Positions 8,620 to 63,800 of a DNA stretch of 64,000 bases are shown here, piece by piece. The stretch covers positions 15,500,001 through 15,564,000 of the forward strand of contig OZ038456.1 in the NCBI GenBank assembly GCA_964036195.1, read 5' to 3'. The notes beneath the pieces are model-generated. The model had not been told where the DNA came from. It saw only the letters and a program-made list of their open reading frames with translations, and ran no database searches. The position numbers and the translations under genes were made by a program. Within the stretch, counting starts at the first letter, position 1; each line of letters starts with the position of its first letter. The stretch comes from Sphaerolaimus hirsutus (taxonomy: Eukaryota; Nematoda; Chromadorea; Monhysterida; Sphaerolaimidae).

Positions 8620-9049
8620 AAATGTCATGCAAAGTGTCAATTGTCATGACAAATGTAAAGTAAAGTGTCAATTGTCATGCAAAATGTCAAGTTTCATGTC
8701 AAATTTCAAGCAAAGTGACAATCGTCATTACAAATGCCATGCAAAGTGTAAATTGTGTATCCAAATATTGTGTTTTTGTATCCATAGTCTGTTTTGTATC
8801 CAAATATTATGTTTTTGTATCCAAACGTTCACATAAGATTTGGATTCAACAACCACGTGATTTGGATACAAAACACAAGAGTAACAAATAAAACATAAGA
8901 TTTGAATACAATTTGCTTGACAATTGATACTTTAATTTTTATATGCCATGACAATTTATGCTTTACTTTTCATTTGTCATGACACTTGACACTTTGCATG
9001 ACATTTTACATGACATTTGACACTTTACAAAGCTTGGGACTGCCCCCAG
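8620..9049. mobile_element. Third member of the TGTCATGCAAAGTGTC MITE family, left end degenerate
   Basis: Repeats of TGTCATGCAAAGTGTCAATTG on the left and inverted copies on the right, with an inner GTATCCAAATATTGTG inverted pair as in 42404-42803. The right end AAGCTTGGGACTGCCCCCAG matches the family terminus. I do not recognise a left GTGCCA terminus, so the exact start is uncertain. Confidence 0.65.
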
Positions 9050-11055: not shown

Positions 11056-14000
11056 TTAAATCACATGCTCCGGGTTGGGTTTGGAGCACAAAAACAGCGC
11101 AGTCATGACGCCGTTCACGGTCAGCATGATCACCATGGCTGCGCTGTCCAAGCGGTGGCACACCTGCGTTTGCATTTTGCATTTGTGTTTGTGATGTTAC
11201 AAAATTGGAAGGATCTTTTATAAGGTAGAAGGCTGGATGTGGGTAGATATTACCGGGGCAAAACCAACTCAAAGTTCAATTTTACATTTCAGTGCTGTTT
11301 TTCGAATTTATCAACAGAAAAATGAGAAAAGATAAACTTTTATGTTTCTCTGGAAAAAGTATTTTTACTTAAAAAAACCTTTTACACTGTGTAAAAGTTC
11401 AAAATGACTTTACACCTTCTGTACTTAGGATGAGTAAAAAGTACTTTCCGTTCATATCTACTTTGAAAATTTAGTTGAAGATTATTTAGTTAAGTACTTT
11501 TAACAACACTTAGTCATTTCCACTGATCCTAGTAATCTTCTATTCATTGAATTTCTCACAAATTAAACCAAGCTATGAAGTCAGCAAGGTATTCTGTGTG
11601 GGCGGTGAATAACCTCTGAGCAGCGAACACCCCTGGACAACTGCGTCTCACGCCGCGTGAGTCACGCGTCACTGCCACACAGTGCACGCCAAGTGCGGGC
11701 GCCAATGCATGAGCAGTTGCGCCGCTCACGCCGAACAGCAGTGGCTACGCGGCAAAGTGGCGCCTGCCGGGCGCGAATGGCAACTGTTCACACACTGCGG
11801 TGGCGACGCGTGTGCGTGCTGGGGTTGCCGGGTGCCCAGGGGTGTTCGTTGCCCACAGTTGCTGGGTTGTCTAAATAGGCACCAAGCAAGCAACCCTACA
11901 ACAAACACCCCCACACACCTGCATCCAAGTGAACATGGCATCACGCGATGCCTGTCCCTCCTTCCTTTCCTTGTGCATAAGGTCAGCGGCAGCTTCCAGA
12001 CGGGACAGGGCTACCAGGGCTCGCTCGAGCCACACCTATGGGTCAATGAATTGAGATTTTGTAGTGTGTGTAGATGTGTAGGTAGTGTGTGTAGATGTAT
12101 TTACACTGAGAGTAGGCTTTACTGTATTGTAGTGTATGACAACTGTATTTTTCTTTTCCATAGCTGGAGGAAGTATAAACCTGATCAAAGGTTCCTGGTG
12201 AGGTCAGTTTGCCATACGGAACTGGCGAGCTGCGCAGATGTTGCAGGATATCTACATGATCCTCTACCTGTGAAAAAACAACATTTTTAAATACAAAACA
12301 AACTTTTTTTAAATGAAGAAAAAAATTGACTGACCGCCCTCAGGCCATCGGCGCTGTCCAGCTGCTTGAAGAGAGACCCCGAATGAGATGAACTTTTAGA
12401 TGGCCTCCTTTTTCCTTTGGTGCTGCTGCAGTCGGACATTTTGGAAGCACATGGGGGCAAGCGCAGTTTTACCATTTTTTGCTTGGAGCTGCAGTCACAT
12501 GTGAGACCTGGATATGATTTCTTTTGTCAGAACACTCTTTTCAGTCTGGTTTGTTGCCATAAATTGAGCCAAATTATGCTATTGGAGCCTGGATGACTTT
12601 CTGGCTATGATATAATTTTGAATGGTTTATACTACCAACTTTCTTGGTGAAAAATTGTGATGACTAAGTATTTCAGAGCTGTGCTACTGCATACTCAGAA
12701 TTTTCTGCTGATAACAGAGATGGTTTTCTGCATGATTTTCAATACATTGTAAACAGTCAATTCTTGAATATATATGCCTAATCCTTCAATTGCATGCTGC
12801 TCTAAGATCAACAATGCTTAAGCCAAGCAGAATGAAAAAAAATTGATGTGAATCATCAAATAATGAGTTAAATAGACAAACCAGTGAGAATTTGAATCCA
12901 TCGAAATGCAGCTATGCCAAATGTAGCATTGCACTGTAGATACATCAAAACCATGGAAATGAACATGGAAACACAGATGATAACCATCTCTTTGATTATG
13001 TAAATGCCTGGAAAAACCCTCAATAAATGGCAAAAAGGTGCAATGCCATTAAAAAATTGCATTGATTTTACAACCCACCCAGAAGTGGAAAACTAGTGCC
13101 AGATTTAGGCACCAGATCCGCAACCATTAGCAAAATCACAGCAATTGTCAGGAGAGCTGCCATGCCAACACTCATCTACACAGGGAATACATGTAAATAT
13201 GAAATGTCTCCAATGATGTCTAAGTACAGAAGAAAAGGGTCCCCAAAAATGGGATGTGGGAGTACCGGTTACACCCCCCCAACCAAACCAACTGTCTATT
13301 TGAGACACAAGCAGTCGTCTTGTCTATATGATTGGATGTCAAAATTTTCTGTTCATATATCCTTCATTTGTACCTGTTTATAAATTTAGTCAGATTTAGC
13401 CACAGTTATTTTTTAGTAAAAAGCCTGGGCAAATGACTCACACACAATACGCAACAAACACACAATCAAACAATATTTTAGCTGTAATCTCCAGAAACAC
13501 CACTTGTTATATTTCAACTCCCACAATGTCCCAATCTTGGAGACCCCCTGCACAAAAACTGGCACCTTTTCACTTCTTTCCATGGACGCACTGGATGGAC
13601 TATGTATACCCATTACACCCAAACAGGTGATTATAAAGGTAGGTGCAACCAATGTCAGAATGTAGAAAAGTGGTTTTCTCTCAATCACAGTCATGTAGTT
13701 AATTAACACTTCACCTGGAGCTGGTTCAAATACTTCAGAATGATAGGACAACAGATGCCAAGTACCTGGAATGAAGTTTGTTGCATTTACAAAAATTGAC
13801 AAATTTCCCAAGATAGCACATTTTCCACACCCAATAAAAAACACATTAATCTAACCACTTTCATTCAACTGCACACTGATCCTACCCACAGTAGTGGGTG
13901 TGACTAAAACCTCATCTTTTGAATATGCCCATGAGCCCACAGTTGCAAAACAGGTCTGCCTGTCGAATGGAAATGCCTCCACTGTGAATTGACACATGAG

Positions 14001-21259: not shown

Positions 21260-24200
21260 TCAGAAAAATCTCAATGTCTGTCCGCTGCAACCATACTTAT
21301 CTTTGTTTTCGTCGAACAATTTTTTGAGTTCGTCCAAATATTTCGCATGCAGTTCCTCTACCATTTCTATGGTGGGATTTTCGACGGGAGCGCCAACTTT
21401 GATGGGGGCGCCAACTGAAAAATGGAGATTACAAAATTCCTTCTGATAACGTTCGTTTAACATCACCGGGGCGGCATTCTAGGGTGAAATTAAATTAGCT
21501 CGGAGTATTTTGCAGGCAACACGAATATTCGTATCTGAATTTTTTCCCCGTCAATTTAAATGTCGTTTTGTTTGGCAGGCACGCTGACAAAAAAATTATG
21601 AAAAGCGTATCTTGTGCCACTCGCTGACCCCGTAAAATGTGAAACGCCCTGGGAAATGGCAAACCCCGTTTGCCATTTTACATCACCTTTACACTTTGCA
21701 TGGCTTAATTTCGTATCACGAAGTCACCATGTGTCAGATCAGTCACCAGAAGTTTCCAGTGAAAACAGTCATGTTTGTTTGTTAACTCCAATGCTAATCA
21801 TAAATGTGATTCACAAATTCAGCTGGTTGAAAATATGAAAATGCACAACAAACCATCACCAACAAAAACTCACCCACGGTAAACAAGGGGTGTCGTCTTG
21901 GCAGAATGCCAAATGTATAATTGAAAATACCCCTGCCGTAAAAGATGGGCGGGGAGTAGCCCATGCGTTTCTTGAACTGCGTCTGCCAGTGCCTGATGCC
22001 GGAGCCGCGCGGATTGGACACTTGTTCGTATAAATCGTTCTCGCCGAATGTGTAGACCGGTACGAGATCGGCTCTGGGTAGGGGTGATTTTATTTCAAGT
22101 TTCATGGTATTCTCGTTTACTTAGCTATTTAGAATTTTCGTTTATTTAGAATTTTCGAATTTTTCTAGAAAAATTCGATTTTCAGGTGTTTTTTAGTGGT
22201 GTAAAAAAAATTCGAAAAATGCAAAAATGCGAAAATAGAAATTCTCAAACCCACGGTCACATTTGTACAGACAACCAAACCCCTCGACTAAACACACCCG
22301 TATTTAATAGCCATTTTCACGAATCCTTTCCTGTGCTTCAAGGTGAGATCGGCCATTCCCGGGTGCGCATCCAGACCCTCCTCGGCTCCGCCCACCACGA
22401 TTAAGCACGCGTGCCCGCCACGCGTCGATTTGGGGGGTTCTGATGTTGTTGTTTTTGCCATAAAATTGATAAGGGATAGAGATTTTATATGGGTCTGTGC
22501 CGGTGCGCATGTAAACCCGGTACGCATGTAAACCCGGCGCGCATGTAGGCCAAATTTCCGCCATTTGTCCATCACACTGATGTTTTATAAGTAAATCGGT
22601 CCTCGTACTGTCAATTCTCTACCAAATACACCGAATGGCGTGCCCGTCGCTCTATATGTATGCATGTATATAGGGATGGCCAGCGCTATTTTTTAAGCGC
22701 TTTTTTTAAAAAAAACGCCGCTTTTTGTTGTACCTATGCATAGGTATTTTGCAATTTTTTCGCGCGCGAGCGCGCAATTCCGCATGCAAATTGCCATTGG
22801 TGGTTGTTTTCATTGGTATTGTGGCATTTTTAGTGCCATTGCTTCTATTCCTGCATGGTATCATGTAATAATAAGTTGTGGTATGTCAGTCAAGTCTATA
22901 ATATCCAGCCAATGTGCTTCAACACACTTTTCTACAGTGTGAAACATCAGTGTCATCGTCATGTATTAGCCTTCTCTTATAGCCATATTTAAGAACTATC
23001 CCATGCTCAACTTCACTAGAAGTCACGAAACATTCACAAACGGCAATATATATAACAAGTCAACATAAAATTGGATTTTTTCAGCAGAAATCAGGACTTT
23101 TAATGCTATCGCATGATTACACAGCCATTCTATGACTATATATCATCACAAGTACTACCACTTGTCTGATATACCTGTATATATTGGCTCAGAACCATAT
23201 TTGGGAGCTTTTTAGGTAATCTCTTGACATTTTTTGAAAAAAAGCGAAAAAAGCGCGTTTTTTAAAAAAAGGCGGGGTCGTTAAAAAAAGCGCTTTTTTC
23301 CATCCCTACATGTATATTTACATACATCTTCTTACGTATACACATACGCGCCGACTTCTCGCCAATCATATTGAGTCGGGCAATAGATCAGAGTGATAAT
23401 TCGGATGTGATAATCCGGGCTTTTCGAGACGAGTCGGGTAACAAAATCTCACGTTACTTTTTAGGGAATAAAAGTTAGCGTCTGATGCCCTTTTTGTCTG
23501 ACGCTTTTGCCACTTGGTTGCATGAACAGTATTATTTTTACCTCTTTATTTACCTACATCTAATCAGCTAACCATCGGTGTTATTATTAACAGAAGTTGT
23601 TTCTTTAGAGGTCGATTTCTTTGGGCCCAGTTTGAGACAATATTCGATGGAAGCCTTTGAAACATCGCAGCCGCCTGAGATCAAATATTTGATTTTTGAA
23701 ACAGTTGTGAGCGCATTTGTTCAGAACTGTCGCGCACTGCAGCATGCATCAAAGTTGCAAAAAATTACCTTTAGAATTACAATTGAAACACGTCGATCGC
23801 ATGAAAATATTTTTTTTCACGCCACGAAAATAAAAATCTTTTCAAACAAAAGCAACAGTGCACTTTTAAAAGTAAAAGCACCCACAACCGAATGCTCAAA
23901 AAATACCCCAACCCACCCAACATCATAAAATACTCTCTTCTAATTGGAAAAGTGAAATTTGCCGCCAATGTCATCATGTGAGTTTCAATCCCAGGGAATT
24001 TCTCCTGAAAACCAGCCGCTGTGGTGCCAATCGAACCAAAGGCACCATAACTTATTATACCGTGGGGGTGCGCTCTGAAAATAGGGATCAAGGTTTGAAT
24101 TAGGGTTGGGACAATATATAGTATCGAATATCGATATAGAAAATTGGGAAAATATCGAATATCGACAATTTTTTCATGTGATCGAATGTGGGTAATCGAA

Positions 24201-25968
24201 TGGGAAAATTTCCCTCCATTGAACATCAATATCGAAAGTCCATATCGATACAGATATTCAGAACTAAATATCAAATCATATCGTCGCAAAACTAGTTTAA
24301 ATCCCTAATTTTTTAATTCAGCGTTGCAAAAAAAACAACCAACGCAAAGATGTAATTTCTATTTGGGTCCAAATCGGCAGTTTTCACCAGCGTTATGGGA
24401 AAGTAATCAATGAAGTATTTCCAAATTCTGCTGTTCAGCAACGGCCACCATCTCCATCTGCTACCTGTGTAAACATTCGGTAAAAATATTTATGGAAATG
24501 TTTTTGAAAATTATAATGAGAAAAAAATGATCATTTCATAGATACATTTTCCAATTGCAAAAGTACAACAACCTCAAAATTCTTTGGGCATAGCGGCAGC
24601 TCAGTGTGCAGATCATGTATCAATGCAAAAAGATTTTGTCAAATGTTTCGGAATGTTGAAAAAAGCACAATTTTAAATCTGTAATAAAAAAGTCAACCTT
24701 GACTGGGAATATCCGCAGTGTAGTAAAACCAAGCAGCGTAAGCGAGCACCAGCCACCAATAGTTTGTGTACAATAGGAGGTATATCGTTACCCCGAGCAT
24801 CACGAGCGGCCACTGAAAAGTTTCATTTTGCAAAGATGGGATTTTGGTCAACTTAGACACTGGAAAATTTCAACAAGTGAATGTGTAATAGCAAATTTGC
24901 AAAATCGGACACGCGCGATGGAGCGTGAACAGTTGCAAATTCAATTTTGCAAATTAAATTAGTTTTTAAAAAAACGCATAAAATTGTGATCTTGTAAAAT
25001 CCTCACGGGATGACCGCAGGGGCCTCCAACTAGGGTTCAAACGGGATCCCGATCCCGATCCCGGATCCCGTGAGATTCCGGGATTTAGCAGTCCCGATCC
25101 CGATCCCGAAACCCCAATCCCGATCCCGATCCCGAAATCCAAAAATACCAATCCCGATCCCGATCCCGAAAACTTTCAAATCCCGATCCCGATCCCGAGA
25201 ATCTCCCAAGTCCGGGATCCCGATCCCGGAAAAAATAGTGGAAATTATAAAAAGTGAAAAAATCACATTTTTGCATGCAAAAATGTGAACACAAACCCCC
25301 AGCGTCCATTTTATGTCACTTTTCTGGCATCCAACAGTGTTTTGAGACCTTTATGAACAACTGTGAATGCCAGAACAGTGATGAAAATCTCTATCCCTAG
25401 ACCCCAATCCCGATCCCGAAAAAATGACAATCCCAATCCCGATCCCGTGACCCCAATCCCGGCCAATCCCGATCCTGATCCCGAAATCTCAAAATACCAA
25501 TCCCGATCCCGATCCCGAAACCCCAATCCCGATCCCGATCCCGAAATCTCAAAAAGTGAATCCCGATCCCGATCCCGAAAAGTCAATCCCGTTTGAACCC
25601 TACCTCCAACGGGGGTTGGGGGTTTACACCCGAATCGCCCAGCCATCTATCTAAACCACAGGCCGCTCAGCTATCTATCCCGCAGGCAAAATTTTAGGCT
25701 AATATCTCCTAACCTACCCCCTCGAAAATCGCTCAGCTCTGGCTATCCGGAGCGATTTTTGAAATAAATTTTGCCCTCTTATAGCCTATTTTCAGCTATA
25801 TGTATAAATGTGCCTGTATACCCGTTTTCGGGTAACCCTATTCTCAGCAATTTTTCTCATTTTCTGCAATGCAAAAAAACTCACGATAAAAAGGGTAAAA
25901 ACGTGAAAAAACACAGCCAAAGTCTGCAGTCGTCGTTCCAAAGGTATAACCAGCGGGGCGAATTCCAT
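21260..25968 (-). CDS. DGAT2: DGAT2/MOGAT-family acyl-CoA:acylglycerol acyltransferase, complete, 8 exons
   Basis: ER membrane enzyme that transfers an acyl group from acyl-CoA to di- or monoacylglycerol in triacylglycerol synthesis. Exons in coding order: 25968-25885, 24812-24698, 24464-24344, 24074-23917, 23674-23573, 22439-22298, 22073-21874, 21414-21260. All phases match, giving 358 aa, a normal family length. Visible motifs: N-terminal [19 protein letters not shown]; a hydrophobic hairpin ending [21 protein letters not shown]; the active-site HPHG in [21 protein letters not shown] and [51 protein letters not shown]; and the C-terminal VGAPIKV block. The chosen start gives the usual short N-terminus; an in-frame ATG at 26016 would add 16 residues. 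The stretch [18 protein letters not shown] ending exon 5 looks like a lineage-specific insertion. The first intron (~1.07 kb) holds a hAT-like MITE (25031-25602), and another MITE (22671-23308) sits in the fifth intron. DGAT2 versus MOGAT cannot be settled by eye. Confidence 0.92.
22671..23308. mobile_element. hAT-like MITE with 8-bp duplication, in a DGAT2-family intron
   Basis: Ends TAGGGATGGCCAGCGCTATT and inverted AGCGCTTTTTTCCATCCCTA, flanked by CATGTATA at 22663-22670 and 23309-23316. A small relative sits at ~62807-62899. Confidence 0.8.
25031..25602. mobile_element. GATCCC-array MITE, hAT-like, 8-bp duplication CCTCCAAC
   Basis: TAGGGTTCAAACGGGATCCC at the left and inverted ATCCCGTTTGAACCCTA at the right, flanked by CCTCCAAC at 25023-25030 and 25603-25610. 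Both halves are tandem GATCCC arrays punctuated by GAAACCCCAAT-type spacers, with a unique core (~25210-25385). It lies in the first intron of the DGAT2-family gene. Confidence 0.88.
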
Positions 25969-26469: not shown

Positions 26470-26688
26470 GTGCCAGTTCCGCAAGTGGAAAAGTTAAGAG
26501 TTAAAATTTAAGAGTTGAGTAAAATGACAAATGACAAGTTATGAGTAAAGTTAAAAGTTAACAGTTGAGTAAAATCGTTTGTCGTTTTACTCAACTCTTA
26601 ACTCTTAACTTTACTCATAACTTGTCATAAGTCATTTTACTCAACTCTTAAGTTTTAACTCTTAACTTTTCCACTTGCGGAACTGGCC
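26470..26688. mobile_element. Near-perfect hairpin MITE
   Basis: GTGCCAGTTCCGCAAGTGGA at the left is matched by TCCACTTGCGGAACTGGCCC at the right. The arms consist of AAGTTAAGAGTT / GAGTTGAGTAAAATGAC repeats and pair over ~100 bp each. No target duplication is evident. Confidence 0.7.
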
Positions 26689-27099
26689 CCATTTCTGGTT
26701 GCTTAATCGCATTCAGCGGTCATTATCGGCGACGCACACCAAAATTCTGCATCTATTACTCCGTTTTTACAATATTTAAGCGTATCCAAATACGAAATTG
26801 GAATTATGCCAACTTCTGTTGTAATGTCCGCGATCCGCTGGGCAGTTATCTGGGTCAGCATCCAAAATACAATCGGTATCCAAATAAGTACCGTGTTACG
26901 AAATCATTGAAATTCAGGATTTTTCATTTTCCCTCCTTTCAAACTGATACCAAACTTCTTCCCGAATGTCACACGCTACTCAAATCCTAATCCCAATGCT
27001 TAAATTGTGCATCAAACAGCCAAAACGACAATGGAAGCAGTTGCAAAAGTTCGGAGACAGCACATAGCCAGCTGGAGCCAGATCAAATTAGAAAGTAGG

Positions 27100-28990
27100 G
27101 CTATGGCCTAAGTCTAAGCCCGACAACAGAGTTGTTAAAGCTACCGAACTTCAAAGTATGCGTATGCGTAAAGTATTTTGTTTTTACGTACCCCCGAGTA
27201 CAGAAAGCGTAAAGTAGAATTTTTTACATTTACTTTCGAGTAAATGAGAGTAAAATACTTTTTTTCCCAGAAAGCATAAGTGTGAGTATTTTTGCTCAGG
27301 AAAGCGTAAAAGCTCATGAAATTACATTTTCTTTCCTGAAAATGTAGAAGGGAGCACTGTGAGTGTTTACCCTGGACAATAAAAAGGTGTTTTCTTTCTA
27401 TTAATGATTTGCCAGTATTCTTTATGAAAAGCAAGAGTCTTGAATGGCCAAATTACTCTTTCTGTACTCGCAAAAATTACTCTACTGTACTCGAATACTC
27501 TCAAAAAGTAAGCGTACAGATGAGTACAGATACTTTAGTCAAAGTATGCATATGCATATGTACTCGGTACTCGAGTATGCGTACTTTTTGGGTAAATGTA
27601 AATACGCATTGACAACTGTGCCTGACATGCGCGATCCTTACGATAATTTCTGACAAAATAATAAACCCACCCTCGAAAAAGCCTTCCTCAAATAATAATA
27701 AACCCCCCATGGAGGTATTTTGAGGTAATACGCAGAGTTGCGAAAGTGTATTTACACTTACCCGAAATACTCAGGTAAATGGGTATTTATATTTACACTT
27801 ACACTTACACTTTCATAAAATACCCATACACTTTTTTTACACTTTCCTGAGCAAAATACCCGGGTACAGAAAGTGTATTTTTTCTTTCAGATGGCCCTGT
27901 TTTATGCTTTTGAGAAAGCATAAAATAGGGTCATGTACAAAAAATAACCGCACAGTGCACACATGCAGTTATGGAATGAATGTTGAAAATATGACAAAAT
28001 GTACAAACTAGCCTTTGATCTCCAACCTTTGATCAGTACTTATGGTATTCTACAGTTCATCATACTTTTGTAAAAAATCAATCAATGGAAATCGATCAAA
28101 TCAAAATAAAAGATCAATGGAAATTCACCAGCTGGACACAAAGTCAACTGGCTTTTGCATTGACATTTGCTGCATGTCCATTCTTGCATTTAAACAGTGT
28201 GTATCGCATTGCTTTATCAGTAAAATATCAACACTGAAAAAGTGCCATTATTAGGGAACTTCATACCACTACAGTACTTGTTACAGTTTGAAATGTTTTA
28301 TAAAATGCAGTAAAATGTGAAATAATGCATGAAAATGACAAATAAAGTGATCTAAAGGTGAAAACAGTGGTGTTTTTTAATGCTCAACAGTGAGAGCTCT
28401 TTCTAAAAAATTTATTACACTTACACTTTTTTTTACACTTTCCTAGGTATTTTTAAAATACCTTACACTTTTGGTATCCATACTCAAAATTTGGAAAGTG
28501 TATTTACACTTACACTTACACTTTCCAAAAATACCGGTATTTTTACAACTCTGGTAATACGGAAGTCACCATTGTCCAGAGTCAATCCCATACAGAGAAT
28601 GGACATATATTTTGTCATAAATTGACTACTAATCAATAATCATGAATAAAATGAAAGCCATGTGAAATATATGTATGATTAAAAATATTACAGTTCTCGG
28701 TACCCCCTTCAGCTGGGGATTTCATCATAAAGATTAGATTTCACAGTTTATTTTATGGTCGTTTTTCTCGAAAACAGACTAAAAACAGTTGTGTATGTTG
28801 CCTTTTTTTATAAAATGTGAACAAGCACCTGATGTAGATAAAATTTTACCGCCCATGAACACATTTGCTGGTACCTTTTACTTTGGCCATGGCGCTAGCA
28901 CCTAAAGGCATCCTCGAAAAACGGCAACACACCGCACCGGCATCGGAGCTATTCTGAAAAAATGGCACTGGCACTGGCAGGGCACCTCTG
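27100..28990. repeat. Two GTTGTTAAAAGTAC / GAGTTGCGAAAGTG elements; no gene seen
   Basis: 27130-27620 carries inverted GTACTCGAGTA-type and AAAGTATTTT tracts. 27733-28556 starts CAGAGTTGCGAAAGTGTATT and ends inverted AATACCGGTATTTTTACAAC, enclosing ~350 bp of unrelated sequence. Confidence 0.5.
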
Positions 28991-28994
28991 AAAA

Positions 28995-29425
28995 TGGCGC
29001 CGGCACCGCACCAGCACTGGTACTGGTGCCCTATGGTGCACCGCACCAGCACTGGTACTGGTGCCCTATGGTGCACCGCACCAGCACTGGTACTGGTGCC
29101 CTATGGTGCACCGCACCAGCACTGGTACTGGTGCCCTATGGTGCACCGCACCAGCACTGGTACTGGTGCCCTATGGTGCACCGCACCAGCACTGGTACTG
29201 GTGCCCTATGGTGCACCGCACCAGCACTGGTACTGGTGCCCTATGGTGCACCGCACCAGCACTGGTACTGGTGCCCTATGGTGCACCGCACCAGCACTGG
29301 TACTGGTGCCCTATGGTGCACCGCACCAGCACTGGTACTGGTGCCCTATTGTGCACAGCGCCAGCACTGGTACTGGTGCCCTATGGTGCACCGCACCAGC
29401 ACTGGTACTGGTGCCCTATGGTGCA
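28995..29425. repeat. Minisatellite, 35-bp unit, about 12 copies
   Basis: The unit is GTGCCCTATGGTGCACCGCA followed by CCAGCACTGGTACTG. Copies are nearly identical, with a variant (TTGTGCACAGCG) near 29350. The array ends an element with GCACCG-rich sequence (28870-29000, 29425-29450). Confidence 0.92.
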
Positions 29426-29891
29426 CAGCACCAGAGCACCGGTGCTTTTTCATCCCTCTCCAATAAGCTCCTTTGAATTAGACCACCTCAATATTTGCTG
29501 GGGTAATAATAAACCCCCCAGGGGTATTTTGAGGAAATACACTATATCCTATCAAAAAGTTAACTGACTACCGCATGGATTTGGCACCTATAATATGTAA
29601 TTGTGGCACCCTTATTAGAACATGAGGCTCCAATCAGTGTACTCTGTGATGTCAACGACAGTTAAAGATTATCTATTTTAATTCTCAATTTCAATCCACC
29701 TGCGAAGATTCGATTTCACAATGTACTGGAGGAACCATGTTGTAACCTGGATTTGCATAGGATTCCTTACTGGTTCGATTTTTTGTGATTTCTAACCTCT
29801 AGATAATCGATAGGGGTTTTGTAGATTTGGGAATTGGGGCAAAATTTCTCAAAATTTCGGCTACCGTATGATTCAGTATGGCATTGGTAAA

Positions 29892-34516: not shown

Positions 34517-34527
34517 CATAGCAACCG
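34517..34527. repeat. MULE target-site duplication, left copy (CATAGCAACCG)
   Basis: 11-bp direct repeat, identical to 38765-38775. It lies exactly outside the inverted repeats. Confidence 0.88.
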
Positions 34528-34702
34528 GCTGACACCCATTGTGGCCGCGCCATTTTGGCCGCGGACGTTAAGGCCGCGCCGTTCTGGCCGCGGGACAGGA
34601 AGGCCGCGGACACGAAGGCCGCGGGACACGAAGGCCGCGGACACGAAGTCCGCGGACACGAAGGCCGCGAGCCCATTGTGGCCGCGGACATGATGGCCGC
34701 GC
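34528..34702 (+). repeat. Left terminal inverted repeat of the MULE
   Basis: 175 bp, GC-rich, built of variants of a 15-bp unit GGCCGCGGACACGAA, some with GGGACAGGAA or GGACGTTAA. It is the reverse complement of 38620-38764 except for the outermost ~13 bp and two additional units near 34642-34671. GCCCATTGTGG recurs inside the arm, echoing the CCCATTGTGG at the tip. The repeated units are plausible transposase-binding sites; that is an inference. Confidence 0.9.
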
Positions 34703-34966
34703 TGTGCATACAACGGCTTAGTACAAAGACGCGGATGCGAAAACAGAAAGTGTGCAGGTGTGCCTGGAACAGGCACGCAGATGTGCATTAGCAGGCGCGT
34801 GTGTGGTGCGGTGCGTATCAGTAATGGGACATCGAAGGGCAAATGATCTTTGTATTCAAGTGCCGACCCGGGATTAAGTTCAAGATGAAAAATATTGGGC
34901 ATGCACTCACGCGTCATGTGACACAAAAAATCACTGAATCACTAACAAAATTAGTAAATTTGTGCC

Positions 34967-37919
34967 ATGGAAGTTCTCAAAGCGAGTCGACAAGGCACCT
35001 ACGTAATTCACGATGGCCATATTCATTCAAAAAAAGAGCAGCTGTCTAGTGGACGCATCAGCTGGCGCTGCATTGACCGTAGCTGCAAAGCGATTATTTG
35101 GACGCAGCCGGATTTTACGGGCCTAATCATTCGCAAAGGCCACGATCACATAGCAGATCCCACAAAGATTTCTTTGATCAAGGTTGGCATTTAATAATTG
35201 ATTTTTTTAACCTTTCGCTTATGTTTACATTTGGTATAATACTTTGTTTTTACTATGGAATAATTAAGCATGACATTTATCACAAGATTCTTTTCATTAA
35301 ATTATGGTAGGATTCTGCACATACTTTTTGATCCACTTAGTATACCGATGTAAATTTCATCCGGTGACCACTCAAAAGTAGAATGAATGCAATCATATTT
35401 CACTCAAACATACTAAAGCTATACGAAGGATGTGATGTTTACACAGCACACATGTAATATATTTACACATTCACAACAGGCACGCAATTTGGCAGACGAA
35501 CAGGCGCGCACCACTGCAGCCACCACTACTGCGATTATCGACAATGTACGCAGTGGGCTGCCAGCATATGCAGAGGCGCAGTCGCAATCACGGCAGGCCC
35601 TTATCAAACAGATAAACAGATCGAGGTTGGTTAAGGGGTTAAGTGCTGACTGTTTTTACCTTAATTGATGCTTATACTGAAGTTTTTGCAACTTGCAGTT
35701 TTGACAAAACACTACCCGAAACTGAACCCGGAATTGAAATTGATTATTTTGGGTCGCTTTTCTGAACACTAGTTCAGTAAACAAGTGTTCAGAAAATATA
35801 CCCGAAATTATCGATTTCGATTCCGGGTCAGTTTCGATAGTGTTTTGGGACGTGAATAATGTATATTTTGTTTGAAAACACTACCCGAAATTGTACCCGG
35901 ACCGAAATTGTAACACTATATTCATAAAAGCGACCCGAAATAATCAATTTCGATTCCGGGTACAATTTCGGGTCGCGATCCGGGTTGAAATTTTTTCTAT
36001 ATTTTTGTAATTTTTCAACCCGGATCGCGACCCGAAATTGTACCCGGAATTGAAATCGAAAATTTTAAAAAAATTTTAAAAAATACATTTTCAAATACAA
36101 ATTGCTTCTGTTATTGCAGGAGGGATGCAACTGGGATAAAGCATCCCCAACCTCACAAATTGTCAGAACTGGGTGACCTCCCTGAGATGTACACTCTGTA
36201 CGAGCGGGAGCCTGGTCAAAGTGAGAAATGGTTGCAGTATGATAGTGGTGCTAACAGCACAAACCGGATGTTCATTTTTTCGACAAAGAGAAATTTGTCG
36301 ATATTGGGAAATACAATGGATTTGAAGGTTGATGGCACATTTGATTGTGTGCCAAACATTTTCCGCAACCAGAATGAAAGTGCCCAGCTTTACACGATTC
36401 ACGGCACCTATTTTGTGAGTCAATCATAAACTATTAATATTTATTAAACATAAATATTATGATAAATCATATTTCATCATTTGTTAGGACCAAAATTTCC
36501 CGCTGGCTTTTGGGCTGTTAACTGGGAAAACGGCGGTGAAGTACCGAGAGTTCTTCACAGAAGTGAAGAATGCAGTGGAAATGTCGAGCGGTTTGACGTG
36601 TTGGCAGCCTAAGTCCATCATGATGGACTTTGAGTACAGTGCATTCAATGCTGTTCAGCAGGTGCCAGTCCCACGCCCTGTAAAGAGTGAATTCAATTGT
36701 CAAATGTCATATAAATTTGTCAATTGTCATGCAAAGTGTCAAAATTTTAGCGAAATTTTTCAAAGAGAGTTGTGATTGAAACATAATTTACATGACATTT
36801 GACACTTGACTTTACACTTGACAGGGCTTGGGACTGCTCCCAGGTTTTTGGAAATTCAATTGAGTGCAGTGGCTGCTTTTTCCACCTGCAGCAAAATGGG
36901 CAGAAAAAAATTGGTGTATGTTATTTTCAAATTATATTTTTGAAATTGAATAAAATTGAATTTTAAATTGTAAAAATATGTTTCCTCCAAATGAAGGAAC
37001 TGCGTGACGACAATGGCGTCCCTTTCAAGACAATGCTCGCTAACGATGGTGAGCTCAACCACTGGGCTCGGTGCATTCCTGCCACGGCCTTTGTCCCTGT
37101 GGAGTATTTACTTGAGGCGTGGGATGATCTTATGGGCGAGCTGCCTGAATGCAGGTATAAGTGTTTTATGTATACTTAGTGCACTGCAATTCCATAGTAC
37201 AACCCAAAGTTTTATGATTATCCCATTGTAAAACTGAATCAAGTCAAAGTGTAAGTGTAAGTGTAAGTCAAAATGTAAGTCAAAGTGTATGAAAACATAA
37301 AAATGAACATTTGCTCAGGCCATTGATGGCGTATGCGCGCTGGTTCGAGGAAAACTATATTGGGCTCCACGCTGGTGCGCGTCGGCGCAAACCGCTGTTT
37401 GAGCATAACTGGTGGAACCAGTATCTGCGCGTTGTTCAGGTAAAATAGTTTTACTGTAATTAGCATAAAATGGCAAAATGTAATTAGCAAAAAATACAAA
37501 TAATATAAATAGGATATTTTGGGGTTTTTGTATAAATAAAAGATAATTTAATCTCTCTTGGTCCACTGGAATGCCATATATTACCATATTTTTTATTAAA
37601 TATTTCATATTCACAGGGCTTGCCACGCTCCAACAACGAGGTTGAGGCATGGCATCGTGTGCTGAATCAGAAGATAAATGGCAGCCACCCCTCCATTTGG
37701 ACATTGCTTAAGACACTTACTAACATCCAGAAGAGTAATGACACTGACATGTCTAGGTTTGAAATGGGAGAAAAGCCCAGAAAGAAGTCCCCTTTTTATG
37801 GTAGTATCACTAATAAGCTGACACATTTGGTACTTAATTATGGACAGGATGGTAGGAGTAATGTGCAGTATTTGAAAGCTATTGCCACAAGTTACAATTT
37901 CAAAGGTCATAAGTTGTAA
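34967..37919 (+). CDS. FLYWCH zinc-finger / MULE transposase, complete, 8 exons, 494 aa
   Basis: Transposase of the surrounding MULE, expected to bind its terminal repeats and catalyse cut-and-paste transposition. Exons: 34967-35182, 35480-35625, 36120-36414, 36488-36661, 36844-36915, 36997-37154, 37319-37439, 37617-37919. All introns are GT-AG and all phases match. Residues ~8-68 form a FLYWCH zinc finger (TYVIHDGHIHSK, SWRCIDRSCKAIIWT, then GHDH). An Ala/Gln/Arg-rich linker follows. The catalytic domain shows LKVDGTFDCVP (first Asp), SIMMDFEYSAF (second Asp) and the late NNEVEAWHR (Glu), plus the conserved blocks YTIHGTYF, CSGCFFHLQQ, AFVPVEYLLEAW and FEENYIG. The fourth intron (36662-36843) is a MITE (see its own entry). 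The 36916-36996 intron has a weak pyrimidine tract, but its acceptor is the only AG that keeps the frame. No disabling mutation is seen. Confidence 0.93.
36662..36843 (+). mobile_element. MITE acting as an intron (introner-like) inside the MULE transposase gene
   Basis: A 182-bp insertion interrupts codons of the conserved transposase core. The left side reads CAGCAG then GTGCCAGTCCCACGCCCTGT. The right side ends ACAGGGCTTGGGACTGCTCCCAG, then GTTTTTGG. The ends are imperfect inverted repeats (AGTCCC.CGCCCTGT against AGTCCC.AGCCCTGT), and the body carries TGTCAAATGTCAT / TGACATTTGACA motifs seen in relatives at ~8620-9049 and 42404-42803. Removing GT...AG exactly joins SAFNAVQQ to VFGNSIECSGC in frame. 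Unspliced, the frame runs into a stop. Confidence 0.85.
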
Positions 37920-38127
37920 AAAATTACAGTTTTTATTGGCTTTCGTTTTTATTATACTTTTATAAATGAATTGTCTTTATCATTTTCTTGAGTTAAAATG
38001 GTTAAAATGGTTTAAATTAAGTACAAATTTTTAACTGCATTGATATTTATTTATTTGTAAATATATTGATTGATTTATAGGGAATAGCACTTTTATTTAT
38101 TTATTATTTACTTTATTTTATTGTTTC

Positions 38128-38260
38128 ACCAGAATTTTTCAACTCGCAGTACTTATTTATTTTTACTTTTATTTCGCCAGAATTTTTCAACTTGCAGTAC
38201 TTATTTATTTTATCTCTTATTTCGCCAGAATTTTTCAACTCGCAGTACTTATTCATTGTT
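38128..38260. repeat. Three ~47-bp tandem repeats in the MULE 3' region
   Basis: The unit contains CCAGAATTTTTCAACTCGCA then GTACTTATTTATTTT, at 38129, 38176 and 38224. It lies between the transposase stop codon and the right inverted repeat. Confidence 0.7.
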
Positions 38261-38619
38261 TGTACACTCTACACAGACAGGTAAAAATGCACCGATAGCT
38301 GACACCTAAATATAAACATTTAGACTTATAAACATAAGTGTGCAGATAAAATAATATGTCCTTTTTTAAGTAATACATTCTTTTGATGTCAGGGTATTGC
38401 AATATTTATATATATTTTACATATTTATAAACTGTTTTGCACCATGTGAAGGAATATGAAGCACACGTAAGTACACAGATATGTTGAAAAGTTCACACAC
38501 AGTTCACACGCACACGTACTCACAATTCAATAGAATCTCAAAAACAAACAAAGACAGACAGATGCTAATCCGATCTGAAGGCAATAGCATGCAGTGGCGT
38601 CTGTTGTGTAATTAGATAC

Positions 38620-38764
38620 GCGCGGCCATCATGTCCGCGGCCACAATGGGCTCGCGGCCTTCGTGTCCCGCGGCCTTCGTGTCCGCGGCCTTCCTGTCCC
38701 GCGGCCAGAACGGCGCGGCCTTAACGTCCGCGGCCAAAATGGCGCGGCCGAAATGGGCTCTTAC
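38620..38764 (-). repeat. Right terminal inverted repeat of the MULE
   Basis: 145 bp, the inverted partner of 34528-34702. It ends next to the second CATAGCAACCG copy at 38765-38775. It has two fewer 15-bp units than the left arm. Confidence 0.9.
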
Positions 38765-38775
38765 CATAGCAACCG
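38765..38775. repeat. MULE target-site duplication, right copy (CATAGCAACCG)
   Basis: Identical to 34517-34527; it sets the right boundary of the element. Confidence 0.88.
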
Positions 38776-42360: not shown

Positions 42361-42403
42361 ATTCACAGCAGAATCGCATCAAATCCGCGTCAATCTCCTC
42401 CAG

Positions 42404-42803
42404 GTGCCACTCCCATACCCTGTAAAAGACCTTGTCAAGTGTAAAAGACCCTGTAAAATGTCATCGCTCCTGTAAAATACTCTGTAAAATGTCATGTGTT
42501 ATGTAAAAGACACTGTAAAGTGTCAAATGTCATGTAAAAGACCCTGTAATGCGTATCCAAATCTTAATGTTACCGTATCCAAATCTATGTTTTTGTATCC
42601 AAATCTTACCTATGGCACAATATTTGGATACAAAAACATTAGATTTGGATACACCTTCAGGGTCTTTTACATGACATTTGACACTTTTCAGGGTTTTTTT
42701 CATGACACATTCCATTTTACAGGGTCTTTTACATGACACATGACACTTTACAGGGTCTTTTACACTTAACAGGGTCTTTTACAGGGTCCGGGAGTGCCTC
42801 CAG
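42404..42803 (+). mobile_element. MITE, same family as the intron-forming element, also between CAG|GT and CAG|G
   Basis: A 400-bp element. The left end is GTGCCACTCCCATACCCTGT and the right end ACAGGGTCCGGGAGTGCCTCCAG, which are inverted repeats continuing into TAAAAGACC. CCTCCAGG occurs on both sides and could be an 8-bp target duplication. The body holds TGTCATGTAAAAGACCCTGT units and an inner inverted pair of GTATCCAAATCTTA-type repeats. The family and the boundaries are clear. Whether it is spliced here is unknown. Confidence 0.8.
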
Positions 42804-60812: not shown

Positions 60813-63800
60813 TCACGCGGGACCCTTCACTTGCGCCATCAATTTCTCATCATTTCTAATCATATCTTCGGGAATATCGGCTAAATCAATGGGCAAAAAC
60901 TTTCGATTGACTGTATGATTAGCAGAAATCACGGAAATCACCCCGCTAGTAAGCCACCACATAACTAGGGGTTGCGTCAGTGCGATGTACACTATAAGAT
61001 ACAGTTTTCTCTTTTTGCCATCGGCCGTGTAACTTTGAGTACTGTCTGACAGGACGTAGGATTTCACGGAGCGAATCTGTGTAATTTTTTTTTGGCGATT
61101 TTTGTGCATTTTTTTAATTTTACGCTGGTATCAATCAACCTCATTTTTGAATTGAAATCTATCAACAACGTATTTCAACCATATACCAACCAGAAAAAAG
61201 GCAATGGACGCAGCGCAATATGCCAAACAGCCGTAATATGCAGCCTTGCCGCCGGCCAAGTAAACCAGTAAACACAGCGTCATTCTGAAGTTAAATTTAG
61301 CATTTTTGAAAGTCTGAATTTGCAGCAAAAAATGCATCACACTACGTGGGCGAAAAATGTATCCATGTGAGAAGTACATTGGCACTCGTAAATCTGTTTT
61401 GAACCAATTTGAGTTTACCAGAGTGAGTTTACCAAAAGGACCCACATACGCTTGTAGAATTCCGTGTGTGATATGAATGATTGATACGAGAATATCCATG
61501 CAGCCCACCCATACATGACACAAGTCAACCAAAACAATAAAAAAAATCCTCGACAAACCCAACAAATTTGTAAGAGCTGTAAGCTAGGGCGTGCCAAACG
61601 CCCAGCGAATGGGATATATTCATGAGAAACTTTGTGCCCAAAATGACCAGGTTTTCACATATGAGCCAGGCCAAAGCGTTGCTCGCAAGCAGACCCAGTT
61701 GTTCGGGTGAAAAGCTGCAATGTGAGTGTGAAAAATTTATGTTTGTGTGAGTGTTCAACTTTTGAAAAACCTTTTCAAAATTTGAGATATGGATAATCTA
61801 GATTTCATGTGAGAAAGAGCTCGATATCTGACTTCATCAGTGGCGTAGTCAGGATTTTTGCCTGGGGGTGCGGATTGTTTACGGAGCCCGGGGAAGGGGG
61901 GGGGGGGGTTGCAGCGCTATAAGCCGACAAATAAGCCAACCCCCCGCCCAAAAAATCGACCTTCTCTTTACCCGGATTAGATCGCTCCCCAAAAAATTCC
62001 ACCCACCTGTCACCAAATCCTAACGTCAAGCCGGCGACCATCACATAAGTCAGAACGGCCATCAAAGGCACGTACAAATCGGGTGCGTTCAATTCCCATC
62101 TTGGGGGCAAGGGGTCACCCCCCGCAGACTGATAACGCATGGACCAGTCCTGGGTAATGAGGGGTAGTTAGGGTGGGGTGGGGGGGGGCTACTCAAGCAA
62201 TTGGTTTTCGTCAGAATTTTTGTAAAAATATGTTATAAGAATCTTTTAGGGGTCTCCAAGATTTTGGCCCTCGCGGGGGCTGGATAGATAGCAATTCGCT
62301 CCTCCGGAGGGATAGATAGTTGAAAAATTTTCTGGGGGGGAGCTGGTGGGGCTGGCGGGGGCACAATATGTAGGTTTTTTCAAAGTTAAGAAGGCAGAAA
62401 GGGGACAAAAATCGCTAATAATCAGTTAAAAGTAGCCAAAAGCAGGTATAAAATGACTAAAAATAGGTTTGACTATAAAATGACTAAAAATGACATATAA
62501 CCATGTATGTAGCCGGAAAGCACGATTTTGAAGGTGAAAAACTATAAAAAGGTGCGAAAATTAGTGATTTTGAGCGAAAATTGGGGCGAAATTTCTCAAA
62601 AACCACTCCAGATAGATAGATAGCTGAGCGATTTGGGGGGTCTTTGGGGGTAGTAGCCAAAAATTTTGCCTCGGGATAGATAGATAGCTGGCCGATATGG
62701 GGGGGGGCAGCCCCCCCCCCTAGGAGACCCCTGGAATCTTTTGTATTTGCAGGTACAAACTGTACTTACACCCTTGTTCTTACAAGGATGAAAGGTTATC
62801 TTATAGGGATGAAAAATAACGTTTTTAACGACCCCGTTTTTAAAATATACCGGTTTTTAAATAAAAGCACGTTTGAAAAGCCTCCGGCCATCCCTACTCG
62901 TTACATTACAGAAATTGGAAGAAAAATCTAACAGTTTCGCCACTTCTCAAGTTGTGATAAATTACAAATAAGAACAAAAATTAAAGCGTTCTATAATGAA
63001 TTCGCCATACCTGATGAGCATAGGGAAATAATAGCAGTCCCAACTTTTTCGCAACATATGCATTATCAACATCGAAATAGTACTTTAGTTGGTCCAGCGA
63101 CAACCAGCGAGATATCTAAAGTTTATATTGAATTAGTTAGGTTTTTTAATTAAAAAAATATATTTATGTTAGAGATATTCTGTGCAGAACCTTAGCACAA
63201 AAGTCACTAAAATTGAATAGAGCAAATACAATCTATCGATATATTTCTAAATCATTTTATTCTACGATAGAATGATCTTCTAATCTATGAATCGGAAATT
63301 GGTTTTCATCTATATCCATAATAACAACACAATTCCATTTTTCCTCATTACAATACATCGCGTTAATTATCCGTGAAGTTTGTGCGTAAAGATTACTTTT
63401 TCTACAATATACCCATGAAACATATAAACCATTCAGTTACAATGGCATAGTACCATAAAAATTCGAGTGTTGTGTAATCTCTCATCGAACTAGAGTTTCA
63501 TATTTACCTTCTCTTTATGCTGCTGTGCCATTTGCTGTCCGTATGCCGCCGCGGCACCGACCATTGGATCGGCCAGAAACTGACCACTGGAAAATTGCAT
63601 AGAGCCGCCTGAAATTCATGTTTTTGTAACGCTTCATTGGATTTCATTGAACGTGAATTCTACTGAGAGGTGTTCGAAGATACAAAGAACATGTATTTGC
63701 TGGCGCAGAATTAAACATTTCGAAATGTCTTCTCATTGTAAAGAGAAAGACATCCACGTTTTGATTCAATCCGTCAAAATCTCACCATAATTGTATGGAT

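Follow-up and report, generated by a model that had tools for sequence, protein, structure and literature searches.

Intron 4 of a nematode MULE transposase gene as a foldback MITE that probably works as an introner

Introduction

Biologists have long asked how new spliceosomal introns originate, and animals have seemed almost devoid of elements that make them. As far as the accessible text of the introner survey goes, only two groups among animals and land plants have introners, both of them animals, and copepods are named (PMC9860276). Here we describe a case from the nematode Sphaerolaimus hirsutus, in a stretch of 64,000 nt (GCA_964036195.1, contig OZ038456.1, positions 15,500,001 to 15,564,000; this whole stretch is called the window, and its own numbering is used below). 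Intron 4 of a Mutator-like element (MULE) transposase gene in the window could be confirmed from the sequence as a GT-AG intron formed along its whole length by a foldback miniature inverted-repeat transposable element (MITE). With a probability of about 0.9, we take it to be a non-autonomous MITE that duplicates CWG (W is A or T) at its target, is probably of the NuwaI type of PIF/Harbinger (PHIS), and works as an introner.

The surveyed introners share with this family that they are repeated introns whose similarity extends to the splice sites; in most of them the mRNA is restored, they are enriched in genes, and many families have terminal inverted repeats (TIRs) and a short target duplication, as here (accessible text of PMC9860276). 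Set against them, the present family has an animal host, would take its 3' site from a 3-bp CWG duplication and its 5' site from the element, and counts a transposase gene among its hosts. The introner of Chrysochromulina, in the same text, likewise carries the 5' site and co-opts the 3' site, but has 4-bp duplications and no TIRs. NuwaI elements, in the available portion of their description (PMC4482050), have CWG duplications, animal hosts and TIRs that usually, not absolutely, begin with GGG, which they have in common with the right end of our family (GGGGCAGTCCC). The left end (GTGCCAGTCCC), however, begins with GTG instead, which makes the donor, and no transposase is tied to the element here. 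Because of these two differences, we do not firmly file the family as NuwaI.

GT-TG sites, as the CTG copies described below would have, occur in the repeat introns IE-B and IE-D of Micromonas; this is an alga, the families have 25 and 6 members, and in the open part of the account they are not presented as the CTG half of a family that targets CWG (PMC3879977). The introners of Amoebophrya are alike in having hairpin inverted repeats, direct repeats of 3-5 nt at the boundaries and many members that are not GT-AG, but according to the accessible sections no family-specific repeat motif was found among them (PMC7789003), whereas here one family has fixed ends and a strand preference for its GT end. 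In the tunicate Fritillaria borealis, also an animal, most introns break the GT/AG rule and introner transposons with weak sites are a possible cause; the commonest non-canonical ends there, according to the available text, are AG/AC and AG/AT (PMC13326754), in contrast to GT-AG and the apparent GT-TG here. Among the titles and abstract openings listed by searches of an open-access library, which lacks most subscription papers, neither an introner with a CWG duplication nor an intron-making MITE in a transposase gene was found.

Intron 4 and its host gene

The intron is 182 nt long, has the exact boundaries CAG/GTGCCAGTCCC...GGGACTGCTCCCAG/GTTTTTGG, and contains nothing beyond the element and its duplication, see Table 1. 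The element is palindromic: nucleotides 5-175 align to their own reverse complement at 72% identity over 178 columns (E 9e-24). Folded with its flanks, the intron RNA reaches -77.1 kcal/mol compared with -48.6 for shuffled sequences (z -6.5), and none of 200 shuffles does as well. The arms of the stem span 36666 to 36836, with GTGC (5' side) and CTCCCAG (3' side) lying beyond it.

An earlier reading, made from the letters of the window alone (hereafter the sequence-only reading), had proposed that a MITE is the intron and that its inverted ends supply the splice sites. The exact ends, the end-to-end palindrome and the in-frame excision bear out the first proposal. The second is right for the 5' GT, which lies in the left repeat, but not for the 3' AG, which belongs to the right CAG duplication and thus lies outside the repeat.

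Exact excision yields an intact open reading frame of 494 aa and fuses NAVQQ to VFGNSIECSGCFFH within the Pfam MULE domain (PF10551), the conserved block in which the sequence-only reading had placed this join. Around the element there are 37 in-frame, stop-free GT..AG pairs, ten of which were scored against the MULE profile. Exact excision came out on top among 14 readings of the domain fragment, with 37.0 bits compared with 32.8 for the runner-up. The lower readings remove one Q (31.6 bits) or two (26.4), add two amino acids (30.6) or six (27.9), or leave the element unspliced (22.8); seven further in-frame GT..AG pairs reached 32.8 bits at best, and the piece downstream of the element gave no match by itself.

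The full protein scores 36 bits against PF10551 (cut-off 27.6) and 24.8 bits against FLYWCH (cut-off 23.6). The inverted arms of the transposon are 98% complementary over 105 nt, and its flanking duplication, ATAGCAACC, is perfect; MULE elements have a target duplication of about 9 bp. By its domains, arms and duplication, the MULE that holds the intron is an intact, complete MULE/FLYWCH transposon, so the earlier claim that the host is itself a transposon gene agrees with these data. Two other palindromic repeats, of the CACTACCCGAAA type, lie inside intron 2 of the gene (35705-35847 and 35938-36065) and neither makes up the whole intron.

Table 1. Coordinates of the MULE, its intron 4 and the related elements in the window.
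Feature	Position	Strand	Remarks
MULE transposase gene	34967..37919	+	8 exons, 7 GT-AG introns, 494 aa, FLYWCH and MULE domains; start codon and exon edges predicted from the sequence
MULE exons 1-4	34967-35182, 35480-35625, 36120-36414, 36488-36661	+	
MULE exons 5-8	36844-36915, 36997-37154, 37319-37439, 37617-37919	+	
Complete MULE transposon	34527..38765	+	long inverted ends; exact ends deduced
MULE target duplication, left	34518..34526	+	9 bp, ATAGCAACC; inside an 11-bp shared word
MULE target duplication, right	38766..38774	+	9 bp, ATAGCAACC
Intron 4	36662..36843	+	MITE (36662-36840) plus right target duplication CAG (36841-36843)
MITE target duplication, left	36659..36661	+	CAG, final codon of exon 4
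MITE left terminal repeat	36662..36672	+	GTGCCAGTCCC; predicted 5' splice site is its bases 1-2
MITE right terminal repeat	36830..36840	+	reverse complement of GGAGCAGTCCC; family form GGGGCAGTCCC
MITE target duplication, right	36841..36843	+	CAG; source of the predicted 3' splice site AG
MITE copy B	42404..42800	+	CAG on both sides (42401-42403, 42801-42803); an open frame spans the joined flanks
MITE copy C	8620..9046	+	right end intact (9036-9049), CAG 9047-9049; left end eroded
Element D	26470..26689	+	palindromic over 222 nt (91%); ends resemble those of the family (GTGCCAGTTCC); CAG to the left, CAT to the right; different subfamily

Related MULE copies: empty sites and selection

The window's own assembly (348 Mb, 762 contigs) was searched for further copies. 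MULE sequence near the intron site was found at eight other places; a further place, on C4, was left out, as its match covers only 31 residues and lies elsewhere. A comparison with other MULE copies for an intron-free site had been proposed in the sequence-only reading, and all five sister copies that cover the site (C6, C14, C7, C1 and C2b) are empty. Their protein reads through the junction and the DNA is ungapped there, with GAG/GTKTTTG in the five sister copies opposite CAG/GTTTTTGG in this MULE. The element is found at the same position in the three other copies, C13, C15 and C2a, the last of which breaks off inside it, and both C13 and C15 have retained the GT and the AG. In a protein tree of eight MULE copies, built with no outgroup and with C2a omitted, the intron-bearing copies form a clade with a support of 0.997; the five sister copies fall into two other clades, both without the intron.

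From this distribution, the intron is evidently not new in this MULE copy; it is older than the spread of its MULE clade and restricted to that one clade. That it was gained once in the MULE lineage is the simplest reading, a shared loss in the others being formally possible. The earlier claim that this is mobile DNA and not an old intron is therefore right about mobility, given the thousands of genomic copies described below, but the insertion is not recent here, as three other copies share its position. MULE relatives with the same sequence had been named beforehand as what would speak against the claim. They exist, in these three copies; what they carry, however, is a mobile element passed down with the MULE, not an ancient intron that does not move.

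All eight exons align between this MULE and C13 over 492 codons without stops or gaps, with a proportion of synonymous differences (pS) of 0.331 and of nonsynonymous differences (pN) of 0.032 (dN/dS 0.07). The comparison with C15, in which exon 1 is absent and exon 8 partial, covers 401 codons without stops (dN/dS 0.09), and the one with the truncated C2a covers 226 codons with one stop and few changes (dN/dS 0.18). For these two copies, C13 and C15, synonymous differences from this MULE amount to 26% and 33% of sites, and by these comparisons the intron is present throughout their divergence. The transposase is strongly constrained although the element interrupts its catalytic domain with 182 nt, so the MULE mRNA must be freed of the element, a conclusion reached indirectly, through selection on the spliced frame.

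The sister copies C6, C14, C7, C1 and C2b (loci L073-L077) have a break of their own near residue 249, probably an intron, which is missing from the intron-bearing clade; the intron positions thus differ both ways.

The MITE family

Relatives of the element within the window had been claimed, and copies B and C were found there as well as element D with similar ends. The RNA of copy B folds end to end, like the studied intron. The interior of element D is unlike that of the MITE family, and it lies close upstream of a possible minus-strand start codon.

Genome-wide, the left end with CAG (the 14-mer CAGGTGCCAGTCCC) occurs 1,706 times (873+833) compared with 3 for the reversed control. The left end with CTG (CTGGTGCCAGTCCC) occurs 1,494 times (727+767), the right end with CAG (GGGACTGCCCCCAG) 3,584 times (1813+1771) and the right end with CTG (GGGACTGCCCCCTG) 2,581 times (1300+1281), all three with a reversed control of 0. 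The exact right ends, 6,165, are nearly double the 3,200 exact left ends, and many elements may have a right-type repeat on either side, or a left end that varies.

In 54 fetched two-ended copies, the flanking triplets are CAG/CAG in 26, CTG/CTG in 5, CTG/CAG in 4 and other in 19; the pairing of ends favoured equal triplets here, and the CWG triplets are identical in 31 and not identical in 23. Ends were also paired blind to the triplet, starting from 50 copies on chromosome C1 taken by their left end (20 CAG, 30 CTG), of which 34 were left after setting aside 3 duplicates, 6 with no right end and 7 weak ones. The CAG-left copies then have CAG on the right in 7 cases, CTG in 1 and another triplet in 4, and the CTG-left copies have CTG in 12, CAG in 4 and another triplet in 6. 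The triplets are equal in 19 of 34, and left and right are associated (Fisher P 0.008). Given this association, the family element is best described as GTGCCAGTCCC...GGGACTGCCCC with a 3-bp CWG duplication, and other copies end at the same kind of junction as the studied intron.

Copy B by itself had pointed to an 8-bp duplication (CCTCCAGG), which we gave up because many copies show a 3-bp CWG. In viral contigs, the TIR pattern matched 35 stretches, one match each, which we took as chance for a pattern of 16 bases; a search of the viral contigs for MULE relatives confirmed none.

Other copies and coding sequence

Evidence that other copies act as introns was sought in their flanks, using a codon model trained on the MULE, OSCP1 and diacylglycerol acyltransferase (DGAT) exons and then refined on the copies. 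Only copies with both ends recognisable and with equal duplications were used. The resulting sample of 43 copies consists of 40 deduplicated ones and three more (L156, L159 and L160) from the same rule extended to ten later loci, and it is not random: 36 loci were taken by similarity to the studied intron and the chromosome C1 loci by an exact left end.

When both flanks were scored jointly, 18 of the 40 copies (25 CAG, 15 CTG) were coding in the sense of the element (11 CAG, 7 CTG), 2 on the other strand and 20 on neither, a strand preference of 18 to 2 (P 4e-4). Flank-by-flank scoring found 14 of the 40 strongly coding on both sides, 12 of these in sense and in frame after exact excision. 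Among all 43 copies with equal CWG, both flanks are strongly coding in 17, compared with 78 of 1,636 random CWG pairs (P 2e-11); 14 of the 17 are in sense and in frame after exact excision, against 28 of the 78 random pairs (P 8e-4), and three are on the other strand. With OSCP1 left out of the training, 17 of 43 copies and 89 of 1,636 pairs are strongly coding, and sense and frame hold in 14 of 17 compared with 35 of 89 (P 0.001). Single calls are unstable, as L129 is sense by joint scoring and antisense flank by flank.

Two sets of ten joined frames were compared with Pfam at E 0.1, and eight of the ten in each had no match. The matches are OSCP1 (E 1.3e-49); a saposin-like one in L040 (E 0.007, below the cut-off); SMP lipid-binding in L103 (E 0.029, below the cut-off), which runs across the junction; and weak tetraspanin-like matches in L124. 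At L160 (G000:C1:7324702-7325335), the flanks are coding-like on the opposite strand, and an altered right end would give GC...AG there, as if mutated towards a usable donor.

Many of the sampled copies thus seem to interrupt coding-like flanks on the sense strand. Should one in three or so of the roughly 3,200 exact left ends be in coding exons, the family would have produced about a thousand introns, by extrapolation from this partly similarity-chosen sample. The sequence-only reading had likened the element to introners, and the likeness extends to similar elements at many unrelated positions, alike up to the splice sites predicted from their reading frames, a TIR with a CWG duplication, and empty sites in the sister MULE copies.

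CTG copies and the OSCP1 gene

The only matches to OSCP1 in the genome are at C1:3591410-3592807, where one CAG copy and one CTG copy of the element lie inside coding exons. When both are cut out exactly, the Pfam Oscp1 domain is unbroken, residues 17-143 aligning to profile positions 1-127 with 168.9 bits. With the next downstream AGs instead, the score falls to 143.0 or 138.6 bits, and the inner AG choice is out of frame. Exact excision of the CTG copy implies an intron GT...TG; this insertion could be young or polymorphic.

For several other CTG copies, a nearby in-frame AG is a live alternative to TG as the 3' site. Of the 11 CTG ends listed, 5 have the next downstream AG in frame and 6 have it out of frame. 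In 4 of them, GGGAG variants of the right repeat contain an AG that would leave an in-frame remainder of 9 nt; for the remaining 7, use of the last AG would leave 19 nt and shift the frame. There are also signs that AG is still preferred at the 3' end: the CAG share is 53.3% of left ends and 58.1% of right ends (P 9e-6). Among the C1 copies, CTG-left/CAG-right occurs in 4 of 30 and CAG-left/CTG-right in 1 of 20, too few to test. TG 3' splice sites are known from 36 human genes, as stated in the accessible text of PMC2374985.

We put it at about even odds that one CWG-targeting MITE family gave rise to some thousand or more coding introns, GT-AG from CAG and GT-TG from CTG, both tolerated and helped by the hairpin, after a single G-to-T change in one end of a GGG-ended element made it an intron maker. 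The CTG copies provide a naturally occurring test of how much deviation from AG a 3' splice site tolerates.

Proposed mechanism and alternatives

We suggest that the element would have inserted into a CAG on the sense strand with its left (GT) end first, giving CAG/GTGCC...CCCC CAG/. The exon would then end at the left CAG, the first two bases of the element would be the 5' site and the duplicated right CAG the 3' site. One CAG would remain after splicing, so that the message is restored to the base in any reading frame. The palindrome would pair the ends of the intron in the RNA and draw the splice sites together, and the GTG of the left end would be the change that created the donor. In the MULE, a single insertion into the DDE domain most likely preceded the spread of the clade across several chromosomes, and the MULE would then have carried the intron along, so that one transposon bore another as a functional intron while it spread. 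In this animal genome, recognisable copies run into the thousands, empty sites are present, and a simple rule would turn almost any CAG into an intron.

Several observations weigh against this proposal. The 3' end of the intron has only a short pyrimidine run, and the donor GTGCCA is a poor match to the usual consensus. The preference for sense and frame weakens to 9 of 14 against 26 of 89 without the refinement of the codon model (P 0.015), and a plain model of MULE and DGAT exons gives 14 of 43 strongly coding against 101 of 1,636, with sense and frame in 7 of 14 against 23 of 101 (P 0.048). The CTG copies look strongly coding as often as the CAG copies (8 of 18 against 9 of 25), an outcome that a spliceosome restricted to GT-AG would rule out. 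Finally, an autonomous partner, which for NuwaI would have a DDE transposase and a Myb/SANT ORF with the same TIRs, was not found; no search was aimed at Myb/SANT, and in the one DDE_Tnp_4 copy that was read, there are no such ends within 3.9 kb.

The comparable coding-like share of CTG copies, which have no 3' AG, is what one would expect if the hairpin joined the ends and the element were cut out without the ordinary rules of the spliceosome. The studied intron and copy B do fold end to end, and such removal has been proposed both for the non-canonical introns of Amoebophrya and for the nonconventional ones of euglenids. The former have inverted repeats and boundary direct repeats of 3-5 nt (available part of PMC7789003), and the latter form an end-joining structure by a mechanism described as unknown in the accessible text of PMC4770533. 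We nevertheless consider removal by structure unlikely. The element points its GT end to the 5' side of the gene in 18 of the 20 copies that the joint model calls coding, and in 14 of 17 flank by flank, an orientation for which structure alone gives no reason; across the genome, CAG is commoner than CTG, the more so at right ends; and the studied intron is plain GT-AG. The same strand preference disfavours programmed elimination of the DNA in some cells, since excision from DNA is blind to the coding strand, and thousands of copies are kept in the assembly. The exact restoration of the target for CAG and CTG alike would suit elimination, and a MITE infestation is reported to be accommodated by DNA editing in the ciliate Blepharisma (open text of PMC9942856), but we regard it as very improbable here.

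Similarly, it is highly doubtful that a MITE invaded an older intron. Other palindromes do lie within intron 2 without being the whole of it; at the studied site, by contrast, no intron sequence exists outside the element and its duplication, the five sister copies are empty and other family copies end at the same type of junction. Partial splicing or inner sites, by which the element would regulate the output of transposase, are a rather improbable variant: the donor GTAAAG at 36680 with the acceptor at 36843 is in frame and free of stops, adding six codons, but this product scores 27.9 bits against 37.0, and selection has kept the exact product, beside which the element may be retained in part of the transcripts. 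A spliceosomal intron made by the MITE is the reading that we prefer.

Other features

DDE_Tnp_4, a Harbinger-type transposase domain, has 163 matches in the assembly, and the scores are nearly identical for most among the matches listed, which suggests a recent burst. This abundant family was considered as the mobilising partner of the MITE, which the one copy read does not support.

Elsewhere in the window, a minus-strand, exon-like piece of a nicotinic-receptor-like gene lies at 13416-13850; its best solved relatives are the nematode proteins ACR-23 and DEG-3, by which the host genome was judged to be that of an animal. Exon-like pieces of diacylglycerol acyltransferase lie at 21797-24304 and a YIF1 match just below the cut-off at 60816-61130, both on the minus strand. 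At 28933-29527, there is a tandem array with a unit of 35 bp and copies up to 100% identical.

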